From contig NZ_LT629690.1 in the NCBI RefSeq assembly GCF_900102185.1, forward strand, positions 4,340,001 through 4,404,000: DNA of 64,000 nt. Direction: 5' to 3'. Below are positions 6,542-22,534 of this stretch, piece after piece. Source of the stretch: Terriglobus roseus. Lineage in GTDB: Bacteria > Acidobacteriota > Terriglobia > Terriglobales > Acidobacteriaceae. The notes under the pieces are model-generated. The model was not told where the DNA came from and did no database searches. It saw nothing but the letters and a program-made list of their open reading frames with translations. Every line of letters starts with the position of its first letter. Position 1 is the stretch's first letter. Made by a program: the position numbers and the translations under genes.

Positions 6542-8845
6542 CTAAATCTCCTGCGAAGGCGGAATCGCCTTCACATCCGTACCCAGCGATTCATTCGGCG
6601 TAGCACTCATCACAAACGTAAGCGTGCCACCATTCGCAATATCGCTATGCCGGAACCACGCCTTGTCCTGCACCGTTCCATTCAGGCGGAACTCCTTCAC
6701 ATAGCAGTCAGCGGCATTCGCACGCTGCACTTCAATCTTCAACACGCGGCCCCTGCCCATATCCAGCGTCGCGCCCGTCGTCACCGGCGAACCCAACACA
6801 TAAATACCGCTCACCGGATCCACCGGATAGAAACCAAGCGCACTCAGGAAGTACCAGGCCGACATCTGGCCCACGTCCTCATTGCCCTGCATGCCATCCG
6901 GCTCTGCCTTGTACATCGTGTCAATCAGGCTGCGCACACGGCTCTGTGTCTTGTGCGGAGCACCCGCATACACATACAGATACGCAATGTGATGCGACGG
7001 CTCATTGCCATGCGCATACTGCCCCACCATGCCCGCAATATCCGGCGGCGCATAAGACGGCAGCGTGCTCGGCTGATTAAACAACGCATCCAGCTTCGTC
7101 ACAAACGGCGCATTGCCACCAATCATCTTGATCATGCCGCCCGGATCACACTGCACCGTAAACGTCGTCTGCCACGCATTGCTCTCCGTGTAGTCCCACC
7201 ACTTCTCCCAGTGCCGCATTTCAATCGGATCAAACGGCGTGGTCCACTCACCATTCGAAAGCTTCGGACGCAGGAAGCCCACACTCGCATCCCAGTTGTT
7301 CAGATATCCCTTTGACATCTTCAACCGCTCATCGCGTTCCGCCGTCATGCCCAACCGCGAAGCAATGTTCGCCATCGCCCAGTCGTCATAGCAGAACTCC
7401 ACATGCTTCGACACCGATTCGCCTTCAAGATCAGCCGGGATATATCCATGCTCCTTGTGCCACGTCATGCCCTGCACATCATCCGCACGGCCCTTCTGCA
7501 ACATCGCATACGCACGCTTGTAGTCAGCCGTGAAGCCCTTCTTCTGCGCCTCTGCAATGACAGAAGAACAATGAAAGCCCGTCATGCACTCCGTCTCACG
7601 ACCCCACAGTGGCCACACCGGCGCACCCGCAGGACTCTCCTCACCCATGCGGATCAGCGTATTCACAAACTGCGGCACACGCTCCGGCTCAATAATCGTG
7701 TACGCCGGATGCGCACCACGGAACGTATCCCACAGCGAGAACGTGGTGTAGTTACGCTCGCCCGCCGGCAGCGTCTTCACGGTGTTATCCATCGCCCGAT
7801 AGCGGCCATCCACATCGTCAAACAGCACCGGCCCCAGGCTCATGTGATACAGCGACGTGTAAAAGATCGTGCGATGCGTCTCGTCAATGAACGAAGCACG
7901 CACCTTGCCCAACTGCCTACGCCAAGCCGCCGCCGCCATCATGCGCGTGCCATCAAAGTCGAAGCCTTTGACCTCAGCGGCAATATTCTTCGCAGCACCC
8001 GCAGTATCCACCGCGCTGATGCCCGTTTTTACAACGATCGTTTCGTTCGCCTTCGTATCGAAGTACAGAACAGCCTTCAGGTTCACACCCTCAGCCTTCT
8101 TGCCACTCACAGGCTGATCGTCTGAAAAGATCTCCACCTTCTTCGGCTTCTTCGAAAACTGCATGGAGAAGTAAGCATGACGCCCGTTGCCCCATCCATT
8201 CGTCACATGCCCACCCTGCAACGTATCGCCCGCAAGCTCCACCTCGCTGCTCACAACGGTGGTGCCCCGCTTCGTCAGGTGCGCATGGTGCAGATCAACA
8301 ATCAGGTAAGCCTCATCACTCTTCGGAAACGTGTAACGATGCACACCCACACGCTCCGTCGCTGTCAGCTCCGCCTTGATCTTGTACGTGTCCAGCATCA
8401 CCGAGTAGTAGCCCGGCGTCGTCACCTCGGTGCTGTGCGTAAAGCGCGAACGATATCCCTCTTCCGGATTCTTCCGGTCGCCCGGCACCAGCTTCGCTTT
8501 GCCCGTACCCGCCATCACCAGAAAGTCCAGCAGATCGCCCACGCCCGTACCGCTCAAATGCGTATGGCTGAAGCCCATAATGCTGTCGTCAGTAATGTGG
8601 TATCCGCTGCTCCAGTCCCATCCATCGTTGTACGTATCCGGCGAAAGCTGCACCGCACCAAACGGCATGCTCGCACCCGGATAGCAGTGCCCATGCCCAC
8701 CCGTACCAATGCGCGGGTCCACCCACTGCAACACATCATCCTTGGCAACAGCCTTTTGCGAAAGCGCCATCATCGAGCGCGATTCCATATGAGCAAGCGT
8801 GGCGGCAACAGCAGCGGATTCCAGAAATCTACGACGAGTAATCAT
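6542..8845 (-). CDS. Secreted GH92 alpha-mannosidase
   Basis: A 767-residue glycoside hydrolase family 92 protein. These calcium-dependent exo-alpha-mannosidases (commonly alpha-1,2) trim mannose from N-glycans and mannans. Family blocks seen in order are RIGTGGHGHCYPGASMPFG, GFSHTHLSGTG, SLWDTFRGAHP, PLWGRETECMTG and GNEDVGQMSAWYFLSALGF. The frame extends up to 9073, but the ATG at 8845 has GGAG eight bases upstream and opens a Tat-like leader (RRRF, then a hydrophobic stretch), so it is the likely start. The receptor gene on the same strand lies upstream with a terminator between, which suggests a receptor/hydrolase pair for mannose-rich glycans. Released mannose could feed ManA encoded near 38 kb. 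Confidence 0.93.
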   Translation of the reverse strand: MITRRRFLESAAVAATLAHMESRSMMALSQKAVAKDDVLQWVDPRIGTGGHGHCYPGASMPFGAVQLSPDTYNDGWDWSSGYHITDDSIMGFSHTHLSGTGVGDLLDFLVMAGTGKAKLVPGDRKNPEEGYRSRFTHSTEVTTPGYYSVMLDTYKIKAELTATERVGVHRYTFPKSDEAYLIVDLHHAHLTKRGTTVVSSEVELAGDTLQGGHVTNGWGNGRHAYFSMQFSKKPKKVEIFSDDQPVSGKKAEGVNLKAVLYFDTKANETIVVKTGISAVDTAGAAKNIAAEVKGFDFDGTRMMAAAAWRRQLGKVRASFIDETHRTIFYTSLYHMSLGPVLFDDVDGRYRAMDNTVKTLPAGERNYTTFSLWDTFRGAHPAYTIIEPERVPQFVNTLIRMGEESPAGAPVWPLWGRETECMTGFHCSSVIAEAQKKGFTADYKRAYAMLQKGRADDVQGMTWHKEHGYIPADLEGESVSKHVEFCYDDWAMANIASRLGMTAERDERLKMSKGYLNNWDASVGFLRPKLSNGEWTTPFDPIEMRHWEKWWDYTESNAWQTTFTVQCDPGGMIKMIGGNAPFVTKLDALFNQPSTLPSYAPPDIAGMVGQYAHGNEPSHHIAYLYVYAGAPHKTQSRVRSLIDTMYKAEPDGMQGNEDVGQMSAWYFLSALGFYPVDPVSGIYVLGSPVTTGATLDMGRGRVLKIEVQRANAADCYVKEFRLNGTVQDKAWFRHSDIANGGTLTFVMSATPNESLGTDVKAIPPSQEI

Positions 8846-8951: not shown

Positions 8952-11900
8952 TTAGAACGAGTACTTCGCCGAAAGCTGCAACATGCGCGGTCCGGAACGC
9001 GTCGTGCTGATGCGCCCAAACGTGCCGCTCGCAGAGTCTTGCGCTGTGCCATCCGGGTTACCGTAGCTTGCAATGTTCAGCACGTTCGACGCATCCACAC
9101 GGAAGCTGATTCTCTGGCTATCCGTAATGTTGAAGTCCTTGAACACTGAAGCGTCATACTGCTGGTAACCAGGCGTGCGCTCCGTGCCAGGGCGCTGCGG
9201 GCTGATCACACCATCCGCAGGCAAACCGTACGCACACACACCGTTGTCCACGCCCGCGGTAAGGCAAGGCGTAGCGGAAGCATCGGTACCAAACCAGTGC
9301 TGCACGCTGCGATTCACAATCTTCAACGGACGGTACTTCACCATGCGCTGCTGATTGCTGTTCACACCAGAGTTCACGTTGTTGCTGGTGATCGTGATGG
9401 GGAAGCCCGTGTACACAAAACCAGAGGCAGCCACACGCCATCCGCCAACAAACTCGTCCACCACGCGTGGCATGTTGCCGCCAAACTTGCGGCCACGGCC
9501 AAACGGCAGTTCATACGTCGCCGTGAAGTTCACGTTATGACGAACGTCTGTACCGCTCGGACCGTATTCCAGCGAGTTATTACGAGGATCCGCAGCATAC
9601 GCGCTCGCTCCGGTAACGTTCGAAACACCATAGAAACCAATGCTGTTCGTCAACGCCTTCGCATACGCGTAGTTCGCCGTGAACTGCAGACCGCCACGCA
9701 GCCGCTGACGGAACGTAGCCTGCAGTGCGTTGTAGTTCGCCATCGCTTCCGATGCTGTCAAAGGCACCGTTCCCGACTGACCAACCACCTGGTAGTACGG
9801 CGACTTGTTCACCGCAAAGCAGGCAGCCGAGTTATACGCCACTAGCGATCCGTTCACAAAGCATGGCGCAGTCAACTGGTTCGCTGCCACAGCCTGGATC
9901 AGGTGATACGCATACTGACCCACGTAGCCCACCTGGAACGACGAGTAGTTGTTCAACTGGTACTCGCTCGTCAGGCTGTACTCCGTCACGGTTGATGGCT
10001 TCAGATTCGGAGCCCACGCACGGAACTTCCCACTGCAACTCGGATCGGTTGTGTATGAGCAGGTCGCATTTGCGTTCTGCGTGAATGCGTTCTCAGCCGT
10101 GGTGTACGTACCCGCAGCAGAAGCGGTAGGCGCGCCACCCGTGTATGAAATCGACGACTGGAATGGCGGGTTGATCGTCAGGCGAAGGTTCGCGCCCGTG
10201 CCTTCCATGTAGGTCGTCGTGCCAAAGCCACCACGCACCACAAGCTTCTGCTTCGGATTCCACGAGAAGCCAACACGCGGCATAAAGTTCGTCCACGTGG
10301 GGTTGTACAGCGCGCGGCTATTGCCGTTCTGTCCTGCCAGTTCAATCGCACCGGTTGTCAGGTTCAGGTTGGCTTGCTTGTTGTTCACTTCATAGATTGG
10401 CTGGTCGTATTCCCAACGCAGACCCAGGTTCACCGTCAGCGTCGGCATCAGCTTCCAGTCATCTTGAACAAACCACGCATCACGCCACTGGCGCTGGCCC
10501 GTGTGTCCTGCCAGCGTGCCGCGGCCTGCGGAGCTCGCACGGTCAAGATAGAAGTCCGCCACACCAAAGCCGCTCGCACCACTCACACCAGTGTTCGCCG
10601 TGTACTGGCCGTTGTAGCTGATCTGGCCCTGCGCACCATCGTTGCCCGTGTACAGGCTGTTCTGCTGATAGCGGATGAACTGTGCGCCCATCTTGATAAC
10701 GTGATTGCCCTTCTGGATCGTCAGGTTATCGCCATAGGTGAAGTTGTTCATCACGTTGTCGGAGTAAATGCCAGAGTTACCAAACGCCGCGCCACCACTG
10801 CTCGAGGAAAGGTTGTTGCCATCCGCATTGATGTTCTGCGCTGCAAATCCCGGAACCGGGCTGCCACCGCCAATGCCAACAGTTGCGTTGCCATTCGTAC
10901 CGAAGACACCGGTTGTATCTGTGGGCACGCCCTGATGCCATGCCGTACGGAAGAAGCCAGCGCGGAACTCATTCTGAATGGTCGGCGTAAACGTGTGAAC
11001 GTAGTTGATCGCTACGCCCTTCGTCGGATACGTCGAAGCCGTGGGGAACGCCAGCGCAATGGGCGACGTGTTGGTATCGCCCGCCGTGCTCTGGCTGTAG
11101 CGCACAAACATCGTGTCCTTGTCGCGGTAGCGGTAGTCCACCTTCGTATCAAACTGATCGTTGTAAATGCGCTGCTTCGTCACGCCACGGAAGTTGCCCG
11201 TCGTGATCGTGCCTGCCTGTGCCGCCTGGTTCGGCAACGGATACAGTTCAGGATGCGCAAACAGGTAGCGTGCCACCGGGTTCAGCGCGGTCGTCGGCAA
11301 CTGGTTATTTACAAACGCGGGCTTGCCTGCTGCCTGCGCGTCATACAACTGGTACGGCACCTCGCCAAAGTCACCCTGACGCATGCGCTGCGTGGCCACG
11401 TTCACATCCTGGTAGCCGCCCTTGTGGTATCGGTTGCCGGAGTAATCAGCAAAGAAGAACAGCTTGTCCTTCAACACCGGGCCACCGATGGTTCCACCAA
11501 AAATGTTGCTGGTCTCGCTCGTCTTCGGCACTGGCGTCGCACTCAGTCCGTTCGCCCAAGTGTTCGCGTTAAAGCTGTCGTCCGTCACGTAGTAGAAGGC
11601 GCTACCGTGGAACTTGTTCGTGCCGCTCTTCAGTAGCGCAATCACGTCGCCGCCGTTCACGTTGCCGTACTCGGCCTGCGCGTTGCTGCTCACGGTGCGG
11701 ACCTGATCCAGCGCATCCGGGCTCGGGTTGTAGCCAATCGTGTTGTTGATCGTCTCGTTGATCTCAATGCCATCCAGCAGATAGTTGTTCGCCTGCTGGC
11801 GGTTCCCATTCACTGAGACCTGCGCACCACCATCCTTACTGCGCTCAATAGCATTCTGTCCGGTGAACACCGTAGGATCGGTCGCCACGGCACCCGGCGT

Positions 11901-12374
11901 AAAGATCGTCAGAGATGCGAAGTTACGGCCCTGCAGCGGAATGCTGTTGATCGCATGCGTATCCAGCGTCATGCCCAGTTCGCCACTCTCGGTATTCAGC
12001 AGCGGCACCAGCGACGCCTGTACTTCAACCGTCTGGTTCGCTCCTTCGGCACTCAGCTTCGCGTCAAACTTCGCGTCCTGTCCCGCCTCCAGGCTGAACG
12101 GCCCAAGGGTCTGGGGCGCAAAGCCCTTCGCTTCAATGACTACTTTGTACTGGCCCACCTGCAGGAAGTGGATGTTGTACACACCGCCGCTCGTGCTCTG
12201 GGTGGTGCTGCTCACGTTGGTCTGCACATTGGTGACCGTTACCTTTGCATTCGGCAAAACGGCACCCGACGGGTCCGTCACGGTGCCGTTCACACTGCCG
12301 GTAATGGTCTGGGCATAGCTACAGGTCGACACCGCCACAAGGGCGACGGGAAGCATTCGGAACAACGACTTCAA
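8952..12374 (-). CDS. Oar-like TonB-dependent receptor
   Basis: About 1140 residues. The longest frame starts with GTG at 12434, but the TTG at 12374 has AAGGAG six bases upstream and gives a clean signal peptide (MKSLFRMLPVALV, cleavage after SYAQ). A carboxypeptidase-regulatory-like domain (residues about 22-110; GTVTDPSGAVLPNAKVTVTN) leads into a plug-like region (NYLLDGIEINETI, GGDVIALLKSGTNKFHGSAF). A large beta-barrel then ends in SAKYSF with a C-terminal phenylalanine, as expected for Bam-inserted proteins. It probably binds and imports a large glycan or peptide ligand. The GH92 mannosidase gene directly downstream suggests a mannose-containing ligand, an inference from position only. 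Its leader carries a perfect palindrome and a C-rich tract. Confidence 0.92.
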   Translation of the reverse strand: MKSLFRMLPVALVAVSTCSYAQTITGSVNGTVTDPSGAVLPNAKVTVTNVQTNVSSTTQSTSGGVYNIHFLQVGQYKVVIEAKGFAPQTLGPFSLEAGQDAKFDAKLSAEGANQTVEVQASLVPLLNTESGELGMTLDTHAINSIPLQGRNFASLTIFTPGAVATDPTVFTGQNAIERSKDGGAQVSVNGNRQQANNYLLDGIEINETINNTIGYNPSPDALDQVRTVSSNAQAEYGNVNGGDVIALLKSGTNKFHGSAFYYVTDDSFNANTWANGLSATPVPKTSETSNIFGGTIGGPVLKDKLFFFADYSGNRYHKGGYQDVNVATQRMRQGDFGEVPYQLYDAQAAGKPAFVNNQLPTTALNPVARYLFAHPELYPLPNQAAQAGTITTGNFRGVTKQRIYNDQFDTKVDYRYRDKDTMFVRYSQSTAGDTNTSPIALAFPTASTYPTKGVAINYVHTFTPTIQNEFRAGFFRTAWHQGVPTDTTGVFGTNGNATVGIGGGSPVPGFAAQNINADGNNLSSSSGGAAFGNSGIYSDNVMNNFTYGDNLTIQKGNHVIKMGAQFIRYQQNSLYTGNDGAQGQISYNGQYTANTGVSGASGFGVADFYLDRASSAGRGTLAGHTGQRQWRDAWFVQDDWKLMPTLTVNLGLRWEYDQPIYEVNNKQANLNLTTGAIELAGQNGNSRALYNPTWTNFMPRVGFSWNPKQKLVVRGGFGTTTYMEGTGANLRLTINPPFQSSISYTGGAPTASAAGTYTTAENAFTQNANATCSYTTDPSCSGKFRAWAPNLKPSTVTEYSLTSEYQLNNYSSFQVGYVGQYAYHLIQAVAANQLTAPCFVNGSLVAYNSAACFAVNKSPYYQVVGQSGTVPLTASEAMANYNALQATFRQRLRGGLQFTANYAYAKALTNSIGFYGVSNVTGASAYAADPRNNSLEYGPSGTDVRHNVNFTATYELPFGRGRKFGGNMPRVVDEFVGGWRVAASGFVYTGFPITITSNNVNSGVNSNQQRMVKYRPLKIVNRSVQHWFGTDASATPCLTAGVDNGVCAYGLPADGVISPQRPGTERTPGYQQYDASVFKDFNITDSQRISFRVDASNVLNIASYGNPDGTAQDSASGTFGRISTTRSGPRMLQLSAKYSF

Positions 12375-12831
12375 ATTGGCACTCCTTACAGCGTTGGGGG
12401 AGGGGGTGGTGGGGGGAAGAACGTGTGCGCACACGATTTGTTCGGTAGCTCACGTTCACTGCAAACGGCTTTTTGCCGTAAATCCCACGCTAAGCGATAA
12501 ATGAAGTGTTTCGATAGGGAAATATTTTCCGTCCCGTAACAATTCACGCCAAAGCGCCGCGAAAGGGACGCCAATCTCTGCAAGTGCCATTCCCATCGAC
12601 CGCTCACTCACCCTTCGCCCCTGAGCTCGGCCCCAAATTCCCAAATCGGAACGCCAAGCACTGCAGAACCCAGCAGATGCCGTCGCATACCCCAAAAGTG
12701 TTATCCGCCTAACCCAAGGGGTGTTATTCCTACCCCAGACTTCCGCCGATTAACGTTACGGCAAGAGTTCGCAAGCCCCGAACTCCCGGTCTGTTGCACT
12801 ACTTTGCTTTTCTGCCTGAAAGGTCTCTCTC
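12375..12831. other. Intergenic leader region between divergent transcription units
   Basis: No convincing gene. On the minus strand it is the leader of the receptor gene: a C-rich tract directly upstream of the ribosome binding site (G-rich on the plus strand, 12394-12418) and a 14-bp palindrome at 12422. Toward 12.7 kb there are two related stretches containing GTGTTAT and a run of C (about 12699-12746). The right end should hold the promoter of the small ORF and perhaps lepA. I could not pick out a clear -35/-10 pair. Confidence 0.6.
12422..12435. promoter_or_regulatory. Perfect 14-bp palindrome, candidate operator
   Basis: CGTGTGCGCACACG reads the same on both strands. It lies about 50 bases upstream of the likely TTG start of the receptor gene. 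It could be a dimeric regulator site or a leader hairpin; neither is shown. Confidence 0.4.
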
Positions 12832-12915
12832 ATGCTTCTCGGTTCACTCTTCGTAGCTGGATTCGTCATCGCCATCGTGGCTGGTTTCGCCAAGGTGGAA
12901 GATAGCTCGTACTAA
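12832..12915 (+). CDS. Possible 27-residue single-span membrane peptide
   Basis: An ATG at 12832 with AAAGG eight bases upstream opens a 27-codon frame ending in TAA. The product starts MLLGSLFVAGF, has one hydrophobic span over residues 2-19 and ends in a short charged tail (KVEDSSY). Start signal, composition and stop all look gene-like, but so short a frame could occur by chance. It precedes lepA by about 160 bases on the same strand. I do not recognise a family, and the sequence differs from KdpF-type peptides. Confidence 0.45.
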   Translation: MLLGSLFVAGFVIAIVAGFAKVEDSSY

Positions 12916-13014
12916 AACTGGCTTTTAACGCCCTCAACCCTCCCCCAGTTCCACCCCTCTTACCCTCAGTCATTTCCATGCCCCATAGCGACCTCCCTCA
13001 ATACGAGGGGGTCC

Positions 13015-13053
13015 ACGTCGCGAAAGCGACGTCGAGCACGGCACGAAGTGCCG
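13015..13053 (+). other. Two tandem stem-loops upstream of lepA
   Basis: Hairpin one: ACGTCGC (13015-13021), GAAA tetraloop, GCGACGT (13026-13032). Hairpin two: CGGCAC (13039-13044), GAA loop, GTGCCG (13048-13053). They sit 25-60 bases before the lepA ATG. They may be a leader structure or a REP-like intergenic repeat. Confidence 0.6.
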
Positions 13054-13077
13054 AAGCACGTAGAATTAAGGGTGAGC

Positions 13078-14877
13078 ATGGACCCCAAGTACATACGTAA
13101 TTTCGCGATCATCGCGCACATCGACCACGGCAAGTCGACCCTCTCTGATCGCCTCCTCGAACTCACCGGCTCGCTCACGCAGCGAGAGATGCAGGCGCAG
13201 GTCCTCGACGCCATGGACCTCGAGCGCGAACGCGGTATCACCATCAAGGCCCACTCGGTCCGCATGATGTACCAGGCCCACGACGGCCAGACCTACCAGC
13301 TCAACCTCATCGACACCCCCGGCCACGTCGACTTCAGTTATGAAGTCAGCCGCTCCCTCGCCTCCTGCGAAGGCGCCCTCCTCGTGGTCGACGCCTCACA
13401 GGGCGTAGAAGCCCAGACCCTGGCCAACGCCTACCTCGCCATCTCCAACGGCCTCGAGATCATCCCTGTTATCAACAAGATCGACCTCCCCAGCGCCGAC
13501 ATCCCGCGCACCAAGGAGATGATCGAAAACACCGTAGGCCTGCCCGCAGACGACGCCATCGCCGTCTCCGCAAAGACCGGCCTCAACGTAGCCGACATCC
13601 TCGAAGCCGTCGTCGCACTCATCCCGCCCCCCACCGGCGACAGCGAGAAGCCGCTCCAGGCGCTCATCTTCGACAGCTGGTTCGACCCCTACAAGGGCGT
13701 CATCGTGCTCGCCCGCGTCATCAACGGCACCCTCCGCAAGGGCCAGCGCATCAAGCTCATGTCCAACGGCAAAGTCTTCGACGTGGAATCCATGGGCGTC
13801 CTCACCCCCAAGCCCGTCGAAATCGCCGAGCTCTCCGCAGGCGAAGTCGGCTTCTTCGTCGCAACCATCAAAGACGTGGCAGACACCAAGGTCGGCGACA
13901 CCATCACTGACCCCACCAACCCCGCCACTGAAATGCTCCCCGGCTTCGAAGACATCAAGTCCATGGTCTTCGCCGGCCTCTACACCGTAGAAAGCCACGA
14001 GCACGGAGCCCTGCGCGAAGCCCTCGGCAAGCTCAAGCTCAACGACGCATCCTTCTCCTTCGAGCCCGAGTCCTCCGTAGCCCTCGGCTTCGGCTTCCGC
14101 TGCGGCTTCCTCGGCCTGCTCCACATGGAAATCATCCAGGAGCGTCTCGAGCGCGAGTTCGGACTCGACCTCATCACCACCGCCCCCGGCGTGGGTTACA
14201 AGGTCCACCTCACCGGCGGCACCACGCTTGAAGTGCAAAACCCCTCGCGCTGGCCCGACCCCACGACCATCGACTCGGTCGAAGAGCCCGTCATCATCGC
14301 CAAAATCCTCACCAACGAGGAGTACGTCGGCAACATCCTCAAGCTCGTCGAAGAAAAGCGCGGCAAGCAGCAGAACATGGAGTACGTCTCCGCCAACCGC
14401 GTCATGATCACCTACGAGCTCCCGCTCAATGAGATCGTGCTCGACTTCTACGACCGCCTCAAGTCCGTCAGCCGCGGCTACGCCTCACTCGACTACCACC
14501 TCTCCGGCACCTGGACCAGCCCCATGGTCAAGATGGACATCCTCGTCTCCGGCGAACCCGTTGACGCACTCAGCATCATCGTCCATCGCGACTTCGCCTA
14601 CGAACGCGGCAAAGCCCTCGTCCACAAGATGAAGGAGCTCATCCCCCGCCAGATGTTTGAGGTCGCCATCCAGGCCGCCATCGGCAGCAAGATCGTAGCG
14701 CGCGAAACAGTAAGTGCCATCAAAAAGGACGTACTCGCCAAGTGCTACGGCGGCGACATCAGCCGAAAGCGCAAACTCCTCGACAAGCAAAAAGAGGGCA
14801 AAAAGCGCATGAAGCGAATCGGCAAAGTAGACATCCCCCAGGAAGCCTTCCTCGCAGTCCTAAAAGTCGGGGAGTAA
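13078..14877 (+). CDS. lepA: Elongation factor 4 (LepA), ribosome-dependent GTPase
   Basis: A full-length LepA of 599 residues, the usual size. The start is ATG at 13078 with AAGG seven bases upstream; an in-frame GTG at 13048 lies inside the second leader hairpin and is less likely. GTPase motifs are clear: AHIDHGKST (G1, about residues 13-21), DTPGHVDF (G3, about 82), NKIDLP (G4, about 137) and SAKTG (G5). EF-G-like domains II, III and V follow, then the LepA-specific C-terminal domain ([38 protein letters not shown]). LepA acts on stalled or mistranslocated ribosomes and in initiation or biogenesis. Its last 53 bases have a degenerate second copy at 16093. Confidence 0.97.
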
Positions 14878-14926
14878 GTCTTATTCACTTATCGCGGACA
14901 GTAGGTGATCGGCGGAGCAGTTGGGA

Positions 14927-15550
14927 CTAATTAGCTTTAGGCGAGGGGATCGTCCGAGAAACATTCGAAATCGGCCCTAGTTCCTGCCAACTGTTTTCGT
15001 TGTATCGGAAAAGAAGCTCAGTACTGCATCCATCCTCCGGGATAAATACCTCAAAAGAGGGTTCCCCTCTCTTTACGAGAATTTGCCCCCTGCAGCCAGA
15101 GTGCGTTGTTCGACCCTGCGGTTGAAAAACATTAGACGTCTGATGCTCATATGTTTCAAGCCAGGTTCCATCCGCGGCTCGGATCCAAAGCCTTGGTTTC
15201 GGTTTCTGGAACTGTATGTAGCTCGACTCGAACGAAACTGGCAGCGAATCACCCTGCGAAGCAACCTCTGCTCTAGTGATCACATTCTCGGATGCAACCT
15301 CATTCTTTCGAATGCTTGCTTCCTGGTGTGACGAAAGCGCCGACAAAATGCCGATCAATGCACTGAAGACGGCTGTAACAGCAAACCCCCACTCGAGGTA
15401 GCCGGGGAGTTTTGCGGAATCTGTTTTTGAAGCAGCCTCCAGCTGGCGCTTGTAGAGATTCGGCCTGATAAAAAACCACAGTATGCTGATGGCAAATCCC
15501 GCGGAAGCGAGGAGAAGGACAGCAAGTTTGTTAAAGGCAAGAATTGTCAT
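14927..15550 (-). CDS. Unrecognised two-span membrane protein with a C-terminal soluble domain
   Basis: A 207-residue product I cannot assign to a family. Two hydrophobic spans are visible, about residues 7-25 (LAVLLLASAGFAISILWFF) and 53-72 (FAVTAVFSALIGILSALSS). About 130 mostly polar residues follow, with Trp/Tyr-rich beta-type sequence and two cysteines (HSGCRGQ, EDGCSTE) that could form a disulfide if the domain is periplasmic. Its ATG overlaps the stop of the gene upstream (15547-15550, ATGA type), so the two are almost surely cotranscribed and translationally coupled. Base composition is lower in GC than lepA next door. It lies in the segment between the two lepA 3' copies, which supports acquisition by transfer. 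Confidence 0.7.
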   Translation of the reverse strand: MTILAFNKLAVLLLASAGFAISILWFFIRPNLYKRQLEAASKTDSAKLPGYLEWGFAVTAVFSALIGILSALSSHQEASIRKNEVASENVITRAEVASQGDSLPVSFESSYIQFQKPKPRLWIRAADGTWLETYEHQTSNVFQPQGRTTHSGCRGQILVKRGEPSFEVFIPEDGCSTELLFRYNENSWQELGPISNVSRTIPSPKAN

Positions 15551-15945
15551 CCATCTACTCCAGTGTCGCTTCCAGATATTGTGGATAAATCATCTTTTAT
15601 CTGTTTGTTGGGAGTAGAAGGAGCGCTCTCGATCTTAGGATTAGTCAATACACTAAGCGCACCGACCCAACCAAAACCCGCCGAAAGACTCTGGAGTGCG
15701 TCCTGAGGGTGAAAAAAAATTGTCCCGATCACGGAACCAGTAAAAGCAACGACTACAAAATCAAGCCGGTCATAGAAAACGTCTGGCTTTCCTGGGAAAA
15801 GACGGCGGAGAGCAGGTGTCGTCCCCGCAAAACCTTTGTAGAGCGAGAACATATACATGGCGACAGAACCGAAAGCTGTGACGACAAAGTTGAGCTTGCC
15901 TGGAGTTGCGAACCGGAGGGTGGCGTCAACTAAAGGCGACCACAT
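15547..15945 (-). CDS. Unrecognised small membrane protein
   Basis: A 132-residue product from the ATG at 15945, which has AAGGGA nine bases upstream; the frame itself is open to 16014. Hydrophobic segments fall at about residues 20-37 (FVVTAFGSVAMYMFSLYKG), 62-80 (DFVVVAFTGSVIGTIFF) and weakly 88-104. The Ser/Thr/Asp-rich tail is cytoplasmic or disordered. It is the first gene of a two-gene unit with 14927-15550 (four-base overlap). No known domain is evident. The partner gene, low GC and position behind lepA suggest an accessory function, possibly defence-related together with the nuclease-like gene on the other strand, but that is only a positional guess. Confidence 0.62.
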   Translation of the reverse strand: MWSPLVDATLRFATPGKLNFVVTAFGSVAMYMFSLYKGFAGTTPALRRLFPGKPDVFYDRLDFVVVAFTGSVIGTIFFHPQDALQSLSAGFGWVGALSVLTNPKIESAPSTPNKQIKDDLSTISGSDTGVDG

Positions 15946-16092
15946 AAGATTTGTTCCCTTCAGCCCGGCCGGCAATCTGCAATGCAGCAAATGGTACCAC
16001 TGCTTCAACGGCAATCAAGAATAATGTCGACGTGACTCACTATCCGAAAATGCAAACTGCTCGCCAAACAAATGAGGGCAGGGAACGAACCT

Positions 16093-16145
16093 GCAAAGTA
16101 GACATCTCCCAGGAAGGCTCTCTCGCCGCCCTAAAAGTTGGAGAA
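16093..16145 (+). pseudogene. Degenerate second copy of the lepA 3' end
   Basis: Aligned base by base, 16093-16145 matches the last coding bases of lepA (14822-14874) at 44 of 53 positions. The reading frame is kept: lepA ends [18 protein letters not shown] and this copy reads CKVDISQEGSLAALKVGE. No other part of lepA is present. It looks like a remnant left when DNA entered at the lepA 3' end, or the far att-like repeat of such an element. Confidence 0.75.
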
Positions 16146-16164
16146 CTTTTTTTACGAGCGCGCG

Positions 16165-17913
16165 ATGGCAAAGATTGAAGTCGTTGTATTTCTCACCTGT
16201 GAGGAGCTGACAGGTAAAGCTGTCGTTGAGGCTGACTTTATCGCCTCGCTCCGGCGCTTCAGCCGAGACTCGATACTTCGGTTATGTTCGTTCATAGCAC
16301 TCGTACTTGAGACCTATAAACGAGGTTCGAAAACAGAGAATGTCCAAGCGTCGCTGCTGTACGACTTCTTTCCTCCGAAAGTAGCGGCGGAATTTGTTTG
16401 TTTGCTTTGGGCGTCTTCCGAACGACGTCGATTACTCTTTCACCGACGCCAGCTTCTCTTGCTAGCAAAATACGCAGTTACACACTGTCCTTCGAATGGG
16501 ATGAACGCGGTCGGAAACATGCTCTTTGGGGTTCTGCTCATTCAAGCGAATGATCTCTTAGACAACCCTACTCCGATGACATCTACCGTATTGAGCAGTC
16601 GGGAAGACATGGCTGCGTTCATTACAACTATGGTGTCTGCAGGCGAATATGCGCATCGAATGCCCGCACAGACATTCGCAAGATCTAGGAAATTGCTTGT
16701 AGATATTCCAAAGAAGTTATTCCCTACCCTCGATCTCAATTGTCAATTCGAAAGCGTAACAGGGCTATCCCTAGAACTTTACTTAGGGCTATCCGTTACA
16801 GCTCTGGCCAAATTTTTCAGGTACCAAGACAGCGATTGGTTGAAACATGCCGATGAAGCTACTTTGCTGGCAAACAATCTCATAGTTGAAGGGTCCTCGG
16901 CAAGAGACGTAAATATCCTCCTTAACATCATCGCTGCGTCTCCCTCTAAGCTCAAAGCCCTTTACGCAGGGCGGACAGCACGCAAGAACGACAGCACGAT
17001 GTTTCGAGATTTTCCGTTTGTCGAATCAGTGGCAAATTTTGGTCTTATCAATCAGACGCAGGTGTTCTTACCCATTGACTTGGAATTCATGATGGACAAG
17101 TTGTTAGGCGGACCTTTTTGGACATTGAAGGCCACAGTTCCACAATTCGAGTCGCTTTATTGGGGGAAAATCTTTGAAGCGTACACGCAGGATATTTTGA
17201 CTCGCGCTTCTTCAGGGACAAATCAGTCCGTATATTGCAACCCTGTATATGCAGATAATCCTTTGGAAGAAATCTGTGACGTCCTCATTTTGTGCGGCGA
17301 AACGGTAGTCCTTCTAGAAACCAAGACATGTATGCTTGATGCTTCCTCGAAATATGAGGGAAAGCCTGAACTATTACTGGCAAAGCTAGAGAAGCTTCTG
17401 GTTGGCTCACCAGAAAAGCCCAAGGCCGTGAGGCAATTAGCCAAGGCGGTTAGAAATCTCTTTCAGGAAGGAAATCAACGTCTGGCGAAGGATATTGATC
17501 TTTCTCAGGTGAAGAGTTGCTTCTGTTCGACTGTTACGTTGGATTACATCGGCGGCGCAGCGGGAGTGGCAACACTTCTTTCGAGCTTCATGGACGAAAT
17601 CTTGGACTCTGAAAAGCTTCGTGTTCAGTTCGAAGGCCATTACACCACTAACATCGATGAGCTGGAAACAATGACTGGCTTTCTAAAATCGACAAATATT
17701 GGAGGCCTGCTCAATCTTTGGAAGATACAGAATCCAGCCCTTGGACGGCCTTTCGGAGCTCAGGATATTCAGTGCCTGAAGTGGGAGTACCCGCAATGGT
17801 TGGAACAAGACTTCCGCTCCATATTTGACAAGGCTCTTCGTCATGTTCTTCCGAAACAGTACGAAAAGCGGGGATTGTCGCTTCCCGAAAACCAACCTAT
17901 GCTCAAGAGTTAG
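16165..17913 (+). CDS. Putative PD-(D/E)XK-type nuclease, otherwise unrecognised
   Basis: A 582-residue protein from the ATG at 16165, a weak start without a clear ribosome binding site. A TTG at 16138 in the same frame lies within the lepA remnant. The N-terminal 330 residues are mostly helical and unassigned. The C-terminal part shows a restriction-nuclease core: helix Glu E338 (GKIFEAY), D372 in ICDVLIL, then E385-T-K387 in VVLLETKT, and Q424 in VRQLAKAV on a following helix. That order (E, D, ExK, Q) fits PD-(D/E)XK enzymes, which cut DNA or RNA using Mg2+. No helicase, methylase or ATPase partner is adjacent. Lower GC than its neighbours and its site behind the lepA remnant suggest horizontal transfer; a stand-alone defence role is inference. 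Confidence 0.68.
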   Translation: MAKIEVVVFLTCEELTGKAVVEADFIASLRRFSRDSILRLCSFIALVLETYKRGSKTENVQASLLYDFFPPKVAAEFVCLLWASSERRRLLFHRRQLLLLAKYAVTHCPSNGMNAVGNMLFGVLLIQANDLLDNPTPMTSTVLSSREDMAAFITTMVSAGEYAHRMPAQTFARSRKLLVDIPKKLFPTLDLNCQFESVTGLSLELYLGLSVTALAKFFRYQDSDWLKHADEATLLANNLIVEGSSARDVNILLNIIAASPSKLKALYAGRTARKNDSTMFRDFPFVESVANFGLINQTQVFLPIDLEFMMDKLLGGPFWTLKATVPQFESLYWGKIFEAYTQDILTRASSGTNQSVYCNPVYADNPLEEICDVLILCGETVVLLETKTCMLDASSKYEGKPELLLAKLEKLLVGSPEKPKAVRQLAKAVRNLFQEGNQRLAKDIDLSQVKSCFCSTVTLDYIGGAAGVATLLSSFMDEILDSEKLRVQFEGHYTTNIDELETMTGFLKSTNIGGLLNLWKIQNPALGRPFGAQDIQCLKWEYPQWLEQDFRSIFDKALRHVLPKQYEKRGLSLPENQPMLKS

Positions 17914-18100
17914 GCCACCATCGATTATTGCTGAGCATCGTCACCTGTCCCCTTCGACGGGCTGTTACCGCCGGAAATCTTTGTCAAGTACGCGATCCGC
18001 TTATGTGTAACAAACCAAAGGAAATACGGTTGGCATGGTATTTCCTCCAGATCGCTACAATAGAAGTAGGGCTTTTTAGTGGCGTTGGTGCCCTAGCCGT

Positions 18101-18195
18101 AAGTCCAATAGAAAGACGATTTTGCCTCTAACCCCAATGGTTAGACGATTTTGCGGGATACCCCGCAGCTAAGTCCTTTCAAAAGACGATTTTGC
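18101..18195 (+). repeat. Cluster of three AGACGATTTTGC repeats
   Basis: Exact 12-base copies at 18114-18125, 18143-18154 and 18184-18195. The outer two belong to a longer 25-base unit: both begin with AAGTCC, have five variable bases, then AAAGACGATTTTGC (18101-18125 and 18171-18195). This is not a CRISPR array: the units are too short and the spacing is uneven (29 and 41 bases). Confidence 0.75.
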
Positions 18196-18253
18196 AAAAA
18201 CAGGGGGAGGGGGTACCCTCCCCATCCCATTGCCGAAAGGTTCAGCGCAAGAG

Positions 18254-18285
18254 CAAATGGCCGCTCCAGAAGGAGCGGCCATTTG
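18254..18285 (-). terminator. Rho-independent terminator of the exporter gene
   Basis: Perfect 14-bp arms CAAATGGCCGCTCC (18254-18267) and GGAGCGGCCATTTG (18272-18285) with an AGAA loop, 27 bases past the stop of the minus-strand exporter gene. Confidence 0.85.
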
Positions 18286-18311
18286 TTGTAGTGATTGTGT
18301 TGCAAACGGGT

Positions 18312-19970
18312 TTAGTGCGCGGGTGCGTCGCCGTCCATGTGGCCGGGCTTGGGCACAATCCACACCAGCGGAACCATGATGGCCGTGAACACTGCCAGCA
18401 CCGCGATGATGTCCAGATAAGCCAGCATCGACGCCTGGTTATGCAGCATGTTGTAGACATTGCCCTGCGCTGCGGAGATCGCATCGGCATGGTTGCCGCC
18501 GCCCGGACCGCGACTGCCCTGCAGGAATCCCGCAACGCTGTTCACACGGTCGTTGAAGGCCTGGCTTGATGGTGTAAGGTTGCGGATCATGTAACCCTGA
18601 TGCGCCTGCGAGCGCCGCGACAACATCGTCGCCACGAACGCCGTACCCACCGACCCACCCACATTACGAGCAAGATTTGAAAGTCCGCTGACATCGTTGT
18701 TCTGTGATCGCGGAATGTTGTTGTACGCAATGGTGTTGATGGGAATGAACAGGAACGCCAGCGAAGCAGCCTGCACAATGCGCAGCCACATAATATCCGC
18801 GAACGACGACCCAAGATTCATGTGCGAGTGCATCAGGTAAAGCGAATACGTCAGCAGCGCAAAGCCGAACGAGATCATCACACGCGGATCAAGACGCGTG
18901 ATGAGAATGCCAACAACAGGCATCATCAGCATGATCGTCACGCCGCCCGGCGAGATCACCAGACCCGCAAGCTCCGCCGTATAACCCAACAACGTCTGCA
19001 CATACTGCGGAATCAACACAGTCGACGCATACAGCGAGAAGCCCAGCACAAACAGCAGCGTGAACGACACCGCAAAGCTACGCTGCTTGAACAGTGTCAG
19101 GTTCAGGATGGGTTTATCACCCTTCTTCAACCGCCACAGCGACCAGATGATCAGACCAATCAGCGACACTGCGCACACAATGGCAAAGGCCGTGATCACA
19201 GAGGAACCGAACCAGTCATCTTCCTGGCCCTTATCCAGCACAAACTCCAGCGACCCGAAGCCAAGCGCCAGCAGACCAAACCCGATGTAATCCAGGTTCA
19301 ACCCCTTCCGCTTGTTTGCCTCCACTTCCTTGATGATGTGCGGAGGATCCTCCACCATACGAGTCGTCAGCACCAAAGACAGGATCGCAACCGGGACGTT
19401 GATGAAGAATATCCATCGCCAGTCATAGTTGTCGGTGATCCATCCACCCAAAGTCGGCCCAATCGCCGGAGCAGCAACCACCGCCAGCCCATACAGCGCG
19501 AACGCCTGCCCTCGCTGCTTAGGCTCGAAGGTGTCCGCAAGGATGGCCTGCTCACTCGGCCCAAGTCCACCACCACCCGCACCCTGGATCAACCGGAACA
19601 GGATCAGGATAGGCAGGGTAGGCGCCAGCCCACACATAGCCGACGAGATACCAAAGATGACCACGCAGATCATGTAGAACTTCTTGCGCCCGATGAACGT
19701 GGTCAGATACGCAGAAGCCGGAAGGATAATGGCGTTCGCCACCAGGTAACTGGTGATGACCCAGGTAGCTTCGTCCTGCGAGGCACCCAACCCACCCGCA
19801 ATGTGCGGCAGGGCCACATTCGCAATAGAGGTATCCAGTACCTCCATGAAGGTAGCCAGGGTCACTGTGAGGGCAATCAGCCAGGGGTTATGCTTCGGTC
19901 GCCACGGCTGTTCTGCCGCGTGCGCTACCTCGGCCGGTTGGCCAGTCTCTTCCATTGTGGTTGCAGCCAT
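18312..19970 (-). CDS. DHA2-family MFS multidrug exporter (EmrB/QacA type)
   Basis: A 552-residue, 14-span transporter of the inner membrane that would export drugs or toxic metabolites using the proton gradient. Family marks are the first-helix motif LDTSIANVALPHIAGGLG (motif D1), TWVITSYLVANAI, the loop GRKKFYMI (motif A) and GPTLGGWITDNYDWRWIFFINVP (motif C and following). No EmrA-type membrane fusion partner or TolC gene is adjacent, so it may work alone or with a partner elsewhere. It is divergent from the nucleotidase gene at 20065, with about 90 bases between. No TetR or MarR regulator gene is next to it. The start at 19970 is the first ATG; a second in-frame ATG five codons on is possible. 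Confidence 0.92.
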   Translation of the reverse strand: MAATTMEETGQPAEVAHAAEQPWRPKHNPWLIALTVTLATFMEVLDTSIANVALPHIAGGLGASQDEATWVITSYLVANAIILPASAYLTTFIGRKKFYMICVVIFGISSAMCGLAPTLPILILFRLIQGAGGGGLGPSEQAILADTFEPKQRGQAFALYGLAVVAAPAIGPTLGGWITDNYDWRWIFFINVPVAILSLVLTTRMVEDPPHIIKEVEANKRKGLNLDYIGFGLLALGFGSLEFVLDKGQEDDWFGSSVITAFAIVCAVSLIGLIIWSLWRLKKGDKPILNLTLFKQRSFAVSFTLLFVLGFSLYASTVLIPQYVQTLLGYTAELAGLVISPGGVTIMLMMPVVGILITRLDPRVMISFGFALLTYSLYLMHSHMNLGSSFADIMWLRIVQAASLAFLFIPINTIAYNNIPRSQNNDVSGLSNLARNVGGSVGTAFVATMLSRRSQAHQGYMIRNLTPSSQAFNDRVNSVAGFLQGSRGPGGGNHADAISAAQGNVYNMLHNQASMLAYLDIIAVLAVFTAIMVPLVWIVPKPGHMDGDAPAH

Positions 19971-20064
19971 ACCCGATTTCAGATGGCGGATTCCGACATG
20001 GGATGCAGAGAGTTTGCGTATGCACTGTTTACGGTGCAGGAACGCGACATGCTAGGGTCGATTC

Positions 20065-20598
20065 ATGGCAAGAATCGCAGTTGATATGGATGAGGTGATG
20101 GCGGACACCGTTGCGGAACACATCCGCCGCTACAACGCTGACTTCCGCAGCGAGCTTTCCAAGGAAGATATGGATGGCAAATGGTTGTGGCAGTGCGTGC
20201 CAGATGCACACCATGAAGCGCTGGTCGGCTATCTGAATGAACCGGAGTTCTTTCGCAATCTTGAATTGATGCCAGATTCGCAGCGTGTGCTGGAGCGACT
20301 GAACCGCGACCACGAAGTGTTCATCGCGTCAGCGGCGATGGAAGTGCCTATGAGCTTCGCGGCCAAGTTTGCATGGATGGAAGAGCACTTCCCCTTCATC
20401 CGTCCTTCGCACATGGTCTTCTGTGGCGACAAGAGCATTCTCGCTGCCGATTACCTCATCGACGACAACCCTCGGCAACTCCGAGCGTTTCGTGGCAAAG
20501 GATTGCTCTTCTCAGCGCCGCATAACAAGCTTGCGAAGGAATGGACGCGCGTCGAAGACTGGAACGCGGTTGAGAAGTTCTTTTATCCGGAAGGATGA
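20065..20598 (+). CDS. 5'(3')-deoxyribonucleotidase, NT5C-type HAD phosphatase
   Basis: A 177-residue HAD-superfamily protein starting at ATG 20065 (AGGG seven bases upstream). The nucleophile D7 and acid/base D9 lie in IAVDMDEVMAD. Motif II is the Ser in FIASAA, and motif IV contains DDNPRQL. The family dephosphorylates nucleoside monophosphates, often deoxy forms, and helps balance nucleotide pools; bacterial members are mostly annotated by similarity. Size and motif order fit the C1 cap-type NT5C group. It converges on the XRE regulator gene with six bases between the stop codons. Confidence 0.85.
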   Translation: MARIAVDMDEVMADTVAEHIRRYNADFRSELSKEDMDGKWLWQCVPDAHHEALVGYLNEPEFFRNLELMPDSQRVLERLNRDHEVFIASAAMEVPMSFAAKFAWMEEHFPFIRPSHMVFCGDKSILAADYLIDDNPRQLRAFRGKGLLFSAPHNKLAKEWTRVEDWNAVEKFFYPEG

Positions 20599-20604
20599 CG
20601 CCGA

Positions 20605-21342
20605 CTAACGCGCGGCAGTGCTCTCGTTTGATCCGCGCGTCTTTCCGTTGCCATTCGGTAGTCCGCCGCCATTGTGTGAAGACGCGTTGCCTTGCAGCGT
20701 GACGATAAGCGCCTTAGCAGGGGTCTGTCCGGCGTTCGCATAGCTGTGCGGCGTATTCGCGTCGAAATACACAGCATCGCCAGCTTCAAGTCGGTGTGTC
20801 CCGTCTCCATGAGTGATATCCATTTCGCCTTCCAGAACGTATAGAAACTCAGAGCCGGGATGCTGATGCGCGCGTCGCGGCGTTACGTTCGGAAGAAACT
20901 CTGCGAAGTAAGGATCAAGCTGGCGATCCGGAATTAGGTAGCCTAACGATTCAAAATAGTAGGCAGGATCATCCGTTCCGCTCTGTGGAAGGCGAATGCG
21001 GTCCTTGCCACGCTGCACGCGGAAAAGCGTCTTCGGTTCCGGCTCAAAGAAGTAGCTTAGGTCCTTTGAAAACACCAACGAGATGCGTGCGAGGTTGCGC
21101 AGCGTAGGCACCACGCGGCCTGTTTCAAGCTGTGACAGAAAGCTGGCGCTGAGGCCGGTGTGACGGCCAAGTTCAACCAGTCCCATACCTTTTTTCAGAC
21201 GTAGCTGCTTAATGCGCTCGCCCAGTTTCTTTTCCGCGATGAAATTTTCAGCGGCTTCGCCAGCTATCGGATCGCCCGTATTCGTAGGCGGAGACGGACG
21301 GTCCGTGATGCTCGCGTCCTTCGTTTCCGCAGATGATGACAT
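20605..21342 (-). CDS. XRE-family regulator with C-terminal cupin sensor
   Basis: A 245-residue transcription factor. A disordered N-terminus of about 40 residues leads to a lambda-repressor-like helix-turn-helix (residues 41-98; VELGRHTGLSASFLSQLETG). A short linker is followed by a small cupin (about 145-217) with metal-type ligands in RAHQHPGSEFLYVLEGE and the late His of TPHSYANAG. Such proteins (PuuR/SutR-like) sense small molecules or metals and repress nearby genes. The ATG at 21342 has GGGAG eight bases upstream. Just beyond it is a perfect dyad at 21356-21369, placed where an autoregulatory operator would be. That dyad also lies before the divergent FnIII lipoprotein gene, so both may be controlled. 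Confidence 0.9.
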   Translation of the reverse strand: MSSSAETKDASITDRPSPPTNTGDPIAGEAAENFIAEKKLGERIKQLRLKKGMGLVELGRHTGLSASFLSQLETGRVVPTLRNLARISLVFSKDLSYFFEPEPKTLFRVQRGKDRIRLPQSGTDDPAYYFESLGYLIPDRQLDPYFAEFLPNVTPRRAHQHPGSEFLYVLEGEMDITHGDGTHRLEAGDAVYFDANTPHSYANAGQTPAKALIVTLQGNASSHNGGGLPNGNGKTRGSNESTAAR

Positions 21343-21355
21343 TGCCCTATCTCCC

Positions 21356-21369
21356 AGTGTCGTGACACT
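21356..21369. promoter_or_regulatory. Dyad AGTGTC-GT-GACACT, candidate operator
   Basis: Perfect 6-bp arms with a 2-base centre, 14 bases from the XRE start codon and just upstream of its ribosome binding site. Size and symmetry suit an HTH_3 dimer. Inferred to be the autoregulatory site. Confidence 0.5.
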
Positions 21370-21490
21370 TTACGTAGGCCAAAAGATGTCGAATTTTGGC
21401 GGAAAGATGTCCGCGCGCATAGAAGTAAGAAAATCTGTGTTTTGCAAAAGGTTGTCTCTGGACTTTAGGCTCGTGAATGTGATCCCGGCT

Positions 21491-22534
21491 TTGCTGCATG
21501 ACAAACAAAGAATTGCACCTGTGATGGTGCTGTGGTTTCTGATGGCTGGCTGCGCCAGCCAAGGGCCAGTGCGTCCTCCATCGCTGCATTTGCCTGCCGC
21601 TGTGCATGGCCTGACCGCGACGCGTGTCGGGGATGCGATTGATCTGGCGTGGACGAATCCGACGCGCACCACGGACGGCGTTTCATTGACGGCAAAGCAT
21701 AGCGCCGGTGCGATGCAGGCAGAGGTCTGCCGTGCCGAAGCATTCACGACTGCTAACTGCACGCCGATTGCGCATCTTCCGGCAACCGCTGGCGGATCCG
21801 GTGGTTATCACGATGTACTGCCATCGTCGTTTGCCGAAGGCAATGTACGAACGATTGTGTATCGCGTTCGGCTCGTGAACTCCGCTGGAAACGGTGCGGG
21901 ATGGACTGAGGTGAAGAGTCTTGCTGGAGTTGCTCCCGCAATCATCACTGGTCTCCGGGCGCAGCCGGTGGCGCAGGGCATTCTCGTGCAATGGCAACCG
22001 GGAGAAGACGGAGTGATGTTGCGGGTGTCTCGTGGAAAGGATGCCACCCATTCCACGTTGCTCGCGGCGTCGGATGCGTCCACGGGTAAGCAGTCACAGA
22101 AATCTTCCAGCGGAACAGTCGATACTGGCGGGCACGTGGGGGAAGAGCAGCGTTACACCGTCTTCCGCCGATGTACTGTTTCGCTGGGTGGGGAATCGTT
22201 CTTGATGGACAGTGATCCGGCCAGCGTGACCGTTACTGCCTCAGCAAAACTGCCGCTGCCGCTACCTCCGACAAGTCTGGAAGCGCTGGCCAACACACTT
22301 TCCACACCGGAAGTTGACCTCGTTTGGCAACCGCCGGACGATGCAGGCGTTACAGGCTATCGTGTCTATCGGGAGGAGTCCGGAGCGACTACGTTGCTGA
22401 CGCAGGAGCCACTCCGCGGATTTACCTACGCTGACAAGTCTGTCTCAAACGGGCATAGCTATCGGTACTGGGTAGCTTCGATGAATGGCACCGGCGAGCA
22501 GCGCAGTTCGGCTGTCAGCGTCACACTTCCTTAA
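21491..22534 (+). CDS. Lipoprotein with fibronectin type III domains
   Basis: The frame is open from 21212, inside the divergent regulator gene, so the true start lies later. A TTG at 21491 gives a short basic stretch (HDKQR), a hydrophobic core and a lipobox LMAGC; the ATG at 21524 is the alternative. Neither has a strong ribosome binding site, so the start is uncertain. The mature part contains at least two FnIII-like beta-sandwiches (AVHGLTATRVGDAIDLAWTN; EVDLVWQPPDDAGVTGYRVYRE with SYRYWVAS near the C-terminus). It should be lipid-anchored and face the periplasm or surface. Function is unknown; FnIII modules usually bind proteins or sugars. Confidence 0.75.
   Translation: MLHDKQRIAPVMVLWFLMAGCASQGPVRPPSLHLPAAVHGLTATRVGDAIDLAWTNPTRTTDGVSLTAKHSAGAMQAEVCRAEAFTTANCTPIAHLPATAGGSGGYHDVLPSSFAEGNVRTIVYRVRLVNSAGNGAGWTEVKSLAGVAPAIITGLRAQPVAQGILVQWQPGEDGVMLRVSRGKDATHSTLLAASDASTGKQSQKSSSGTVDTGGHVGEEQRYTVFRRCTVSLGGESFLMDSDPASVTVTASAKLPLPLPPTSLEALANTLSTPEVDLVWQPPDDAGVTGYRVYREESGATTLLTQEPLRGFTYADKSVSNGHSYRYWVASMNGTGEQRSSAVSVTLP

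Follow-up and report, generated by a model that had tools for sequence, protein, structure and literature searches.

Foreign cassettes that arrived repeatedly behind lepA in Terriglobus roseus and other soil Acidobacteria, apparently lacking an integrase, each probably left a decaying old gene end

Integrative elements that insert at the 3′ ends of genes restore the gene end and displace the old end to their far side, and a cargo with such an old 3′ end behind it is typical of site-specific integrative elements. The region downstream of lepA in Terriglobus roseus and several of its relatives is like such elements in that a restored lepA end precedes the cargo and an old lepA end lies beyond it. 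It is unlike them in that no integrase was found and no fixed core is evident.

Several other systems are similar in part. Homology-facilitated illegitimate recombination (HFIR) has been proposed for the stacked effector-immunity arrays of the Vibrio T6SS, and is also called rare there (PMC5361080). As we read the lepA locus, it shares with these arrays a homologous anchor on one side, an illegitimate join on the other and the displacement of older material downstream into arrays, but its anchor is the 3′ end of a housekeeping gene, its cargo is often defence-like, and its fossil is the anchor gene’s own end rather than an immunity gene (PMC5361080). In Escherichia coli, most products sought as HFIR events were partial lacZ duplications of 109-950 bp (14 sequenced clones), which were interpreted as single crossovers of a circle (PMC3240628). 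There too a partial 3′ duplication of variable length sits beside inserted DNA. The lacZ case is a laboratory conjugation assay (PMC3240628), whereas at lepA old insertions have recurred in nature at a single gene.

Restriction-modification genes have been found inserted with long, variable target duplications (Nobusato et al. 2000, cited in PMC3031569). The likeness lies in defence genes with host DNA directly repeated on either side, over lengths unusual for the target duplications of transposons, and the difference in that one edge at lepA is fixed at the stop codon and many cargo types occur at one locus (PMC3031569). The minimal mobile elements of Neisseria (PMC3082526) likewise place different cassettes between the same conserved genes with no mobility gene found, but at lepA the anchor-gene remnants record successive insertions, and here species are compared, not strains. 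Defence islands in general have been attributed largely to the turnover of mobile elements at chromosomal hotspots (review, PMC8791490). The 3′ end of lepA is probably a capture site where cassettes stack, with no integrase found and with fossils that would order the events; no literature on a lepA 3′ hotspot in Acidobacteria appeared among the matches listed. Here defence-like cassettes gather at the end of a housekeeping gene, near which no integrase was found, and each arrival leaves a fossil of the former gene end. From these fossils the sequence of insertions can be read along the chromosome, and the idea that host recombination builds defence islands becomes testable.

The window is a stretch of 64,000 nucleotides from the complete T. 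roseus genome (G000 in our genome set), and coordinates given without a locus handle refer to it. Its relevant features are as follows.

13078-14877, plus strand: intact gene for elongation factor 4, lepA, taken as the anchor (from the ORF and genus-wide LepA matches)
14764-14874, plus strand: 3′ coding end of lepA, recurring downstream (sequence comparison)
14927-15550, minus strand: ORF of 207 aa, function unassigned, with hydrophobic segments by eye; the newer cassette in our reading
15547-16014, minus strand: ORF of 155 aa (ORF list), function unassigned; also the newer cassette in our reading
16044-16144, plus strand: decayed lepA 3′ remnant, ~75% identity, stop codon gone (sequence comparison)
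16165-17913, plus strand: gene for a 582-aa protein, distantly GapS1-like (NCBIfam NF047931); the older cassette in our reading
18009-18222, no strand assigned: one copy of a ~210-nt dispersed repeat, where the stretch conserved in G007 and G013 has its edge (genome search)
18312-19970, minus strand: MFS transporter (Pfam MFS_1, E 1.7e-60), the first right-flank gene shared with G007 and G013

The original prediction that the last 53 coding bases of lepA (14822-14874) recur at 16093-16145, with 44 of 53 positions identical, describes a real repeat. Its further statement that no other part of lepA is present is not quite right, because the copy is longer than 53 nt. An ungapped direct repeat of 70 nt at 80% identity pairs 14804-14873 with 16075-16144 at a spacing of 1271, and a gapped alignment joins lepA 14764-14874 to 16044-16144 at 75% over 111 columns. 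When the last 400 nt of lepA were compared with the DNA downstream of the gene, the repeat was found at E ~5e-16, and a whole-genome search with lepA 14750-14890 returned these two places only (E <= 0.001). When 21 genomes were searched for the segment, with at most 14 candidates scored in each, the remnant part matched lepA ends only, in G000 and G001. LepA itself is matched over 595-599 aa at 85-100% identity in 16 of the 19 genomes of the genus set and in pieces in the other three.

Two membrane-protein genes on the opposite strand had been described between the copies. Both ORFs are indeed on the opposite strand, and their membrane nature is judged by eye only. Neither gave a Pfam match above cut-off or an NCBIfam match at E <= 0.1, and the part of the 155-aa ORF at 15550-15945 matches two of 396 phylum genomes, namely G000 itself and, weakly, G007. 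GC content is lower between the copies, as had been noted (49.7% versus 60.4% in the part of lepA read), but the copies do not cleanly bracket a foreign-looking segment, since low GC continues past the second copy to ~18008 (47.5%, with 57% in the flank).

This further stretch encodes the 582-aa protein, which matches NCBIfam NF047931 (GapS1) with E 2.5e-12 and 46.4 bits, under the curated cut-off of 320; on this profile match we would claim no more than a distant relationship to GapS1, an anti-phage family. A nuclease-like D...ExK motif is seen by eye, PADLOC gave no match for a 591-aa reading of the gene, the predicted structure has a mean pLDDT of 36, and the protein matches 7 of 396 phylum genomes, G000 included. 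An Rfam scan of 12000-22000 and a PDB sequence search returned nothing informative. DNA common to G007 and G013 resumes at ~18008-18017, where the dispersed repeat starts, and the adjoining MFS transporter is 97% identical in G007 and 99% in G013. The repeat itself recurs in at least 13 further places in G000 (72-76%) and at least 14 in G007 (70-86%); its copy at 18009-18222 contains three AGACGATTTTGC-type units and as DNA folds better than shuffles (z -3.7).

Decayed lepA 3′ remnants are located downstream of lepA in five of the 19 genus genomes (G000, G003, G007, G010 and G014), whereas only 2 of the 182 other genes tested there have such a copy (Fisher p = 8e-5). The control genes sit within the lepA-downstream stretches themselves; one positive is a gene of G006, and the other, a BRO-N gene, belongs to the G010 hotspot itself. 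The remnants measure 182 columns at 87% in G003, 142 at 94% in G007, 198 at 91% in G014 and 111 at 75% in the window, while G010 carries two stacked ones (62 nt at 94% and 207 nt at 87%). The comparison of these relatives thus supports repeated insertion at the 3′ end of lepA, with differing cargo and a lepA 3′ repeat on its far side. The same genes and the same copy are not present everywhere, because the closest relative, G013 (99% LepA identity), carries other genes downstream of lepA, with no remnant found. In G014, the last ~45 nt of lepA (L047, as stored, minus strand, ~10437-10482) are unusually diverged and by eye have features in common with the remnants of G014 and G010.

Beyond the genus, remnants at lepA were found in G298 and G207, which belong to two other genera of the family. 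The underlying protein-level search covered 300 family genomes, among the matches listed, and misses decayed copies, including that of the window; its counts are therefore lower bounds. G207 is counted, though its contig opens within the first of its lepA ends, and either end may be the functional one. Extra matches in G114, G069, G179 and G310 were taken as contig edges or a lepA frameshift and remain uncounted, as does G117, in which two contigs each bear a full lepA 3′ end. Outside G000 and G007, the lepA contigs that bear remnants are mostly short and of metagenome type.

At the DNA level, 87 of 90 loci were tested (L110 had no lepA match and two had too little downstream DNA); the anchor fell on the second copy in L107, which therefore could give no result, and on the orphan copy in L036 and L108. 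No terminal same-strand remnant was found in 60 further family loci, and none on the plus strand of 78 loci (of 80), many of them from other phyla and at least four (L179, L185, L189 and L208) from genomes also present in the other set. L151 and L153 gave matches on the opposite strand, which we left out because they are not terminal. Orphan lepA 3′ pieces, located beside defence-like genes and away from the real lepA, were seen in contig C32 of G003 (L036, 3431-4479) and contig C221 of G159 (L108, 12161-12415), both as stored on the minus strand. Because G003 and G159 are in many contigs, these pieces may be mis-binned.

Cargo differs between genomes and is often defence-like, with a presumed role in defence. 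G007 carries an NgoMIV restriction enzyme, a methyltransferase and Vsr. A PIN toxin with a small upstream ORF occurs in G003, G010 and G014 (39-47% identical among themselves, the G014 match being just below the Pfam cut-off), accompanied by HEC-01A/B in G003, an AriA-like ATPase in G010, and M78 peptidase/HTH and DpnI proteins in G014. The cargo of G013 consists of a KGGVGR ATPase and an HTH protein, and cargo of other kinds includes a beta-helix protein (G207), an outer-membrane protein (G010) and an unmatched ORF (G298). Between the two conserved genes lepA and MFS, the different species G000, G007 and G013 thus hold different whole-gene cassettes. The PIN family is found in 88 of 300 family genomes, and we rejected the PIN toxin-antitoxin pair as the mobile unit: only the three lepA-linked loci of the 30 PIN loci read show lepA repeats, and two others show unrelated weak repeats.

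The edges of the remnants, counted from the end of each gene’s own stop codon, are distributed unequally. Left edges at lepA loci fall at 63 (G010), 100 (G298), 115 (window), 141 (G007), 181 (G003), 200 (G014), 208 (G010) and ~308 nt (G207), and those of the orphans at 177 (G003) and 221 nt (G159), so that long direct repeats of target DNA, ~60-310 nt, flank the inserts. Right edges at lepA loci lie between -4 and +2 of the stop codon, with the G159 orphan reaching 33 nt past it. Because the left edges are scattered, we rejected a fixed attachment site. The toxin-antitoxin cases of G003, G010 and G014 are probably one ancestral event, because their edges are close together. By this count there would be six events at lepA loci (the toxin-antitoxin event, the 62-nt remnant of G010, G007, the window, G298 and G207), in addition to the G159 orphan.

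The clearest view of a single insertion comes from G298, for which 12 of the 19 other members of its genus from the protein-level search were read. The distance between the lepA and dnaB matches is 1545 nt in G298 versus 347-455 nt in 11 of these 12 congeners; no dnaB match was found in the twelfth. One cargo ORF lies within the G298 interval, followed by the remnant at +1021 to +1117 and then by 428 nt up to dnaB. In 11 of the 12 congeners the native spacer between lepA and dnaB is matched, at 61-74% identity, by the DNA behind the G298 remnant, starting ~100 nt after it, whereas the DNA behind the intact lepA matches the spacer of none of the 12. The downstream piece in G298 is, by this comparison with empty sites, the displaced original lepA end, and the earlier idea of an old gene end moved to the far side is borne out there. 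By analogy, the remnant in the window is likely to be a displaced end as well.

We assign a probability of roughly 0.62 to the reading that the lepA 3′ end is a capture site at which host homologous recombination in lepA, combined with an illegitimate join or an end-joined circle, stacks cassettes. Incoming DNA would consist of a lepA 3′ end followed by cargo, and homologous recombination inside the resident lepA would keep that gene whole but give it the 3′ end that came in. At its other extremity, the cargo would be joined without homology to a lepA 3′ piece, which would then form the remnant behind the cargo. By one route, HFIR, the join would fall inside the resident lepA end; by another, the incoming linear DNA would be circularized by end joining and the circle integrated by one crossover. 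Repeated events would stack cassettes with decaying lepA ends in between. We infer from the products both this pathway and the order of events in the window, where lepA would be followed by the newer 207/155-aa pair, the remnant, the older GapS1-like gene and the conserved MFS flank.

The edges agree with this capture reading. Right edges at the stop codon are expected because homology ends with the conserved gene, and right edges fixed there together with scattered inner edges are therefore as a homologous lepA anchor and a non-homologous join predict. HFIR products are defined by a homologous join on one side, 3-10 bp of microhomology at the other join, and deletion of the recipient DNA between; the intact lepA and the homology up to its stop codon fit the one-side homologous join, as read from the products only. 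HFIR is very rare in the laboratory and usually deletes recipient DNA (PMC3240628 and PMC5361080), and because of this deletion the circle route accounts for partial duplications no less well. Ku is present in 17 of the 19 genus genomes and ComEC-domain genes in all 19 (the ComEC domain also matches in E. coli), making end joining and DNA uptake possible; these genes explain no difference, because they are present with and without remnants. Further points against the capture reading are that the left edges of G010 and G159 are close together in different genera and that remnants are rare elsewhere (0 of 60 family loci and 0 of 78 further loci).

Additional signs point to recombination at lepA ends, short of proof. 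An altered block is common to three remnants (two of G003, one of G010) in different contexts. A BRO-N module begins directly behind lepA in G010, and in contig C32 of G003 it starts at the same base beside a ~10-nt lepA-like end, as seen by eye, which could be chance. A third, heavily decayed G010 remnant may lie behind a duplicated BRO-N 3′ end; this putative remnant aligns to the BRO-N/lepA stretch of L036 (68% over 436 columns), and a direct comparison with G010’s own lepA gave no match. Which copy fits the species tree differs from case to case: of nine remnants, five come closest to another species’ lepA and four to that of their own genome (both copies of G003, G014 and G159), all by small margins, and replacement by an incoming allele is not proven because of this split.

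That the cassettes are instead decayed site-specific integrative elements, with the lepA 3′ end as attachment site and with integrases lost or acting in trans, we consider unlikely. The displacement in G298 and the shared first base of the BRO-N module in G010 and C32 would both suit such elements, as would the nearly coincident left edges of G010 and G159. However, one integrase cuts one core, yet remnants of at least 84% identity start at 63, 141, 181-208 and ~308 nt. Moreover, the lepA contigs were checked in eight genomes, the one of G007 being 1.7 Mb long, and no tyrosine integrase (PF00589) was found on them or within 300 kb in the complete G000, where the nearest is ~304 kb away. This test is weak for G003, G014, G298, G207 and G159, because their lepA contigs span only 5-11 kb and would miss a distant integrase. 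Recombinase families were likewise absent from the cargo proteins scanned, a subset of the ORFs. With no tyrosine integrase near and the left edges scattered, the proposal of a decayed integrase element or fixed integration site at lepA is not supported.

Insertion with a long, variable target duplication, wherein the resident lepA end is copied on insertion and no donor supplies one, seems to us less probable again. The repeats of ~60-310 nt agree with it, as do the NgoMIV cargo type of G007 and the remnants nearest their own lepA in G003 (both copies), G014 and G159. Nevertheless, random target duplication should vary both edges, and the right edge is at the stop codon in every lepA-locus case. 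Target duplication also names a product, not a pathway, and may equal the process favoured here.

A chance of much the same size is given to a dedicated recombination system without a linked integrase that would act on lepA 3′ ends as handles to insert, swap and occasionally export defence cassettes. Such a system would be suggested by the altered block in three remnants and by the lepA pieces beside defence-like modules away from lepA (G003 C32 and G159 C221). Finally, that the second copy resembles lepA by chance or derives from some other gene family, which the decay of the window’s copy (~75%) taken by itself might suggest, is rejected as next to impossible on the E value of ~5e-16, the genome-wide and 21-genome searches, wherein no better match than lepA was seen among the matches listed, and the clearer copies at the same place in relatives.

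Partial 3′-end copies were also observed behind two genes other than lepA. In G006, a 3.5-kb gene is followed 80 nt downstream by a 106-column partial copy of its 3′ end at 70% (L039, as stored, minus strand, ~12074-15758). In G010, the BRO-N 3′ end is repeated 2.7 kb downstream, with the AriA-like ATPase between the copies (L043, as stored, minus strand, 10776-11616 and 7863-8104), which is a lepA-like pattern with another anchor gene.
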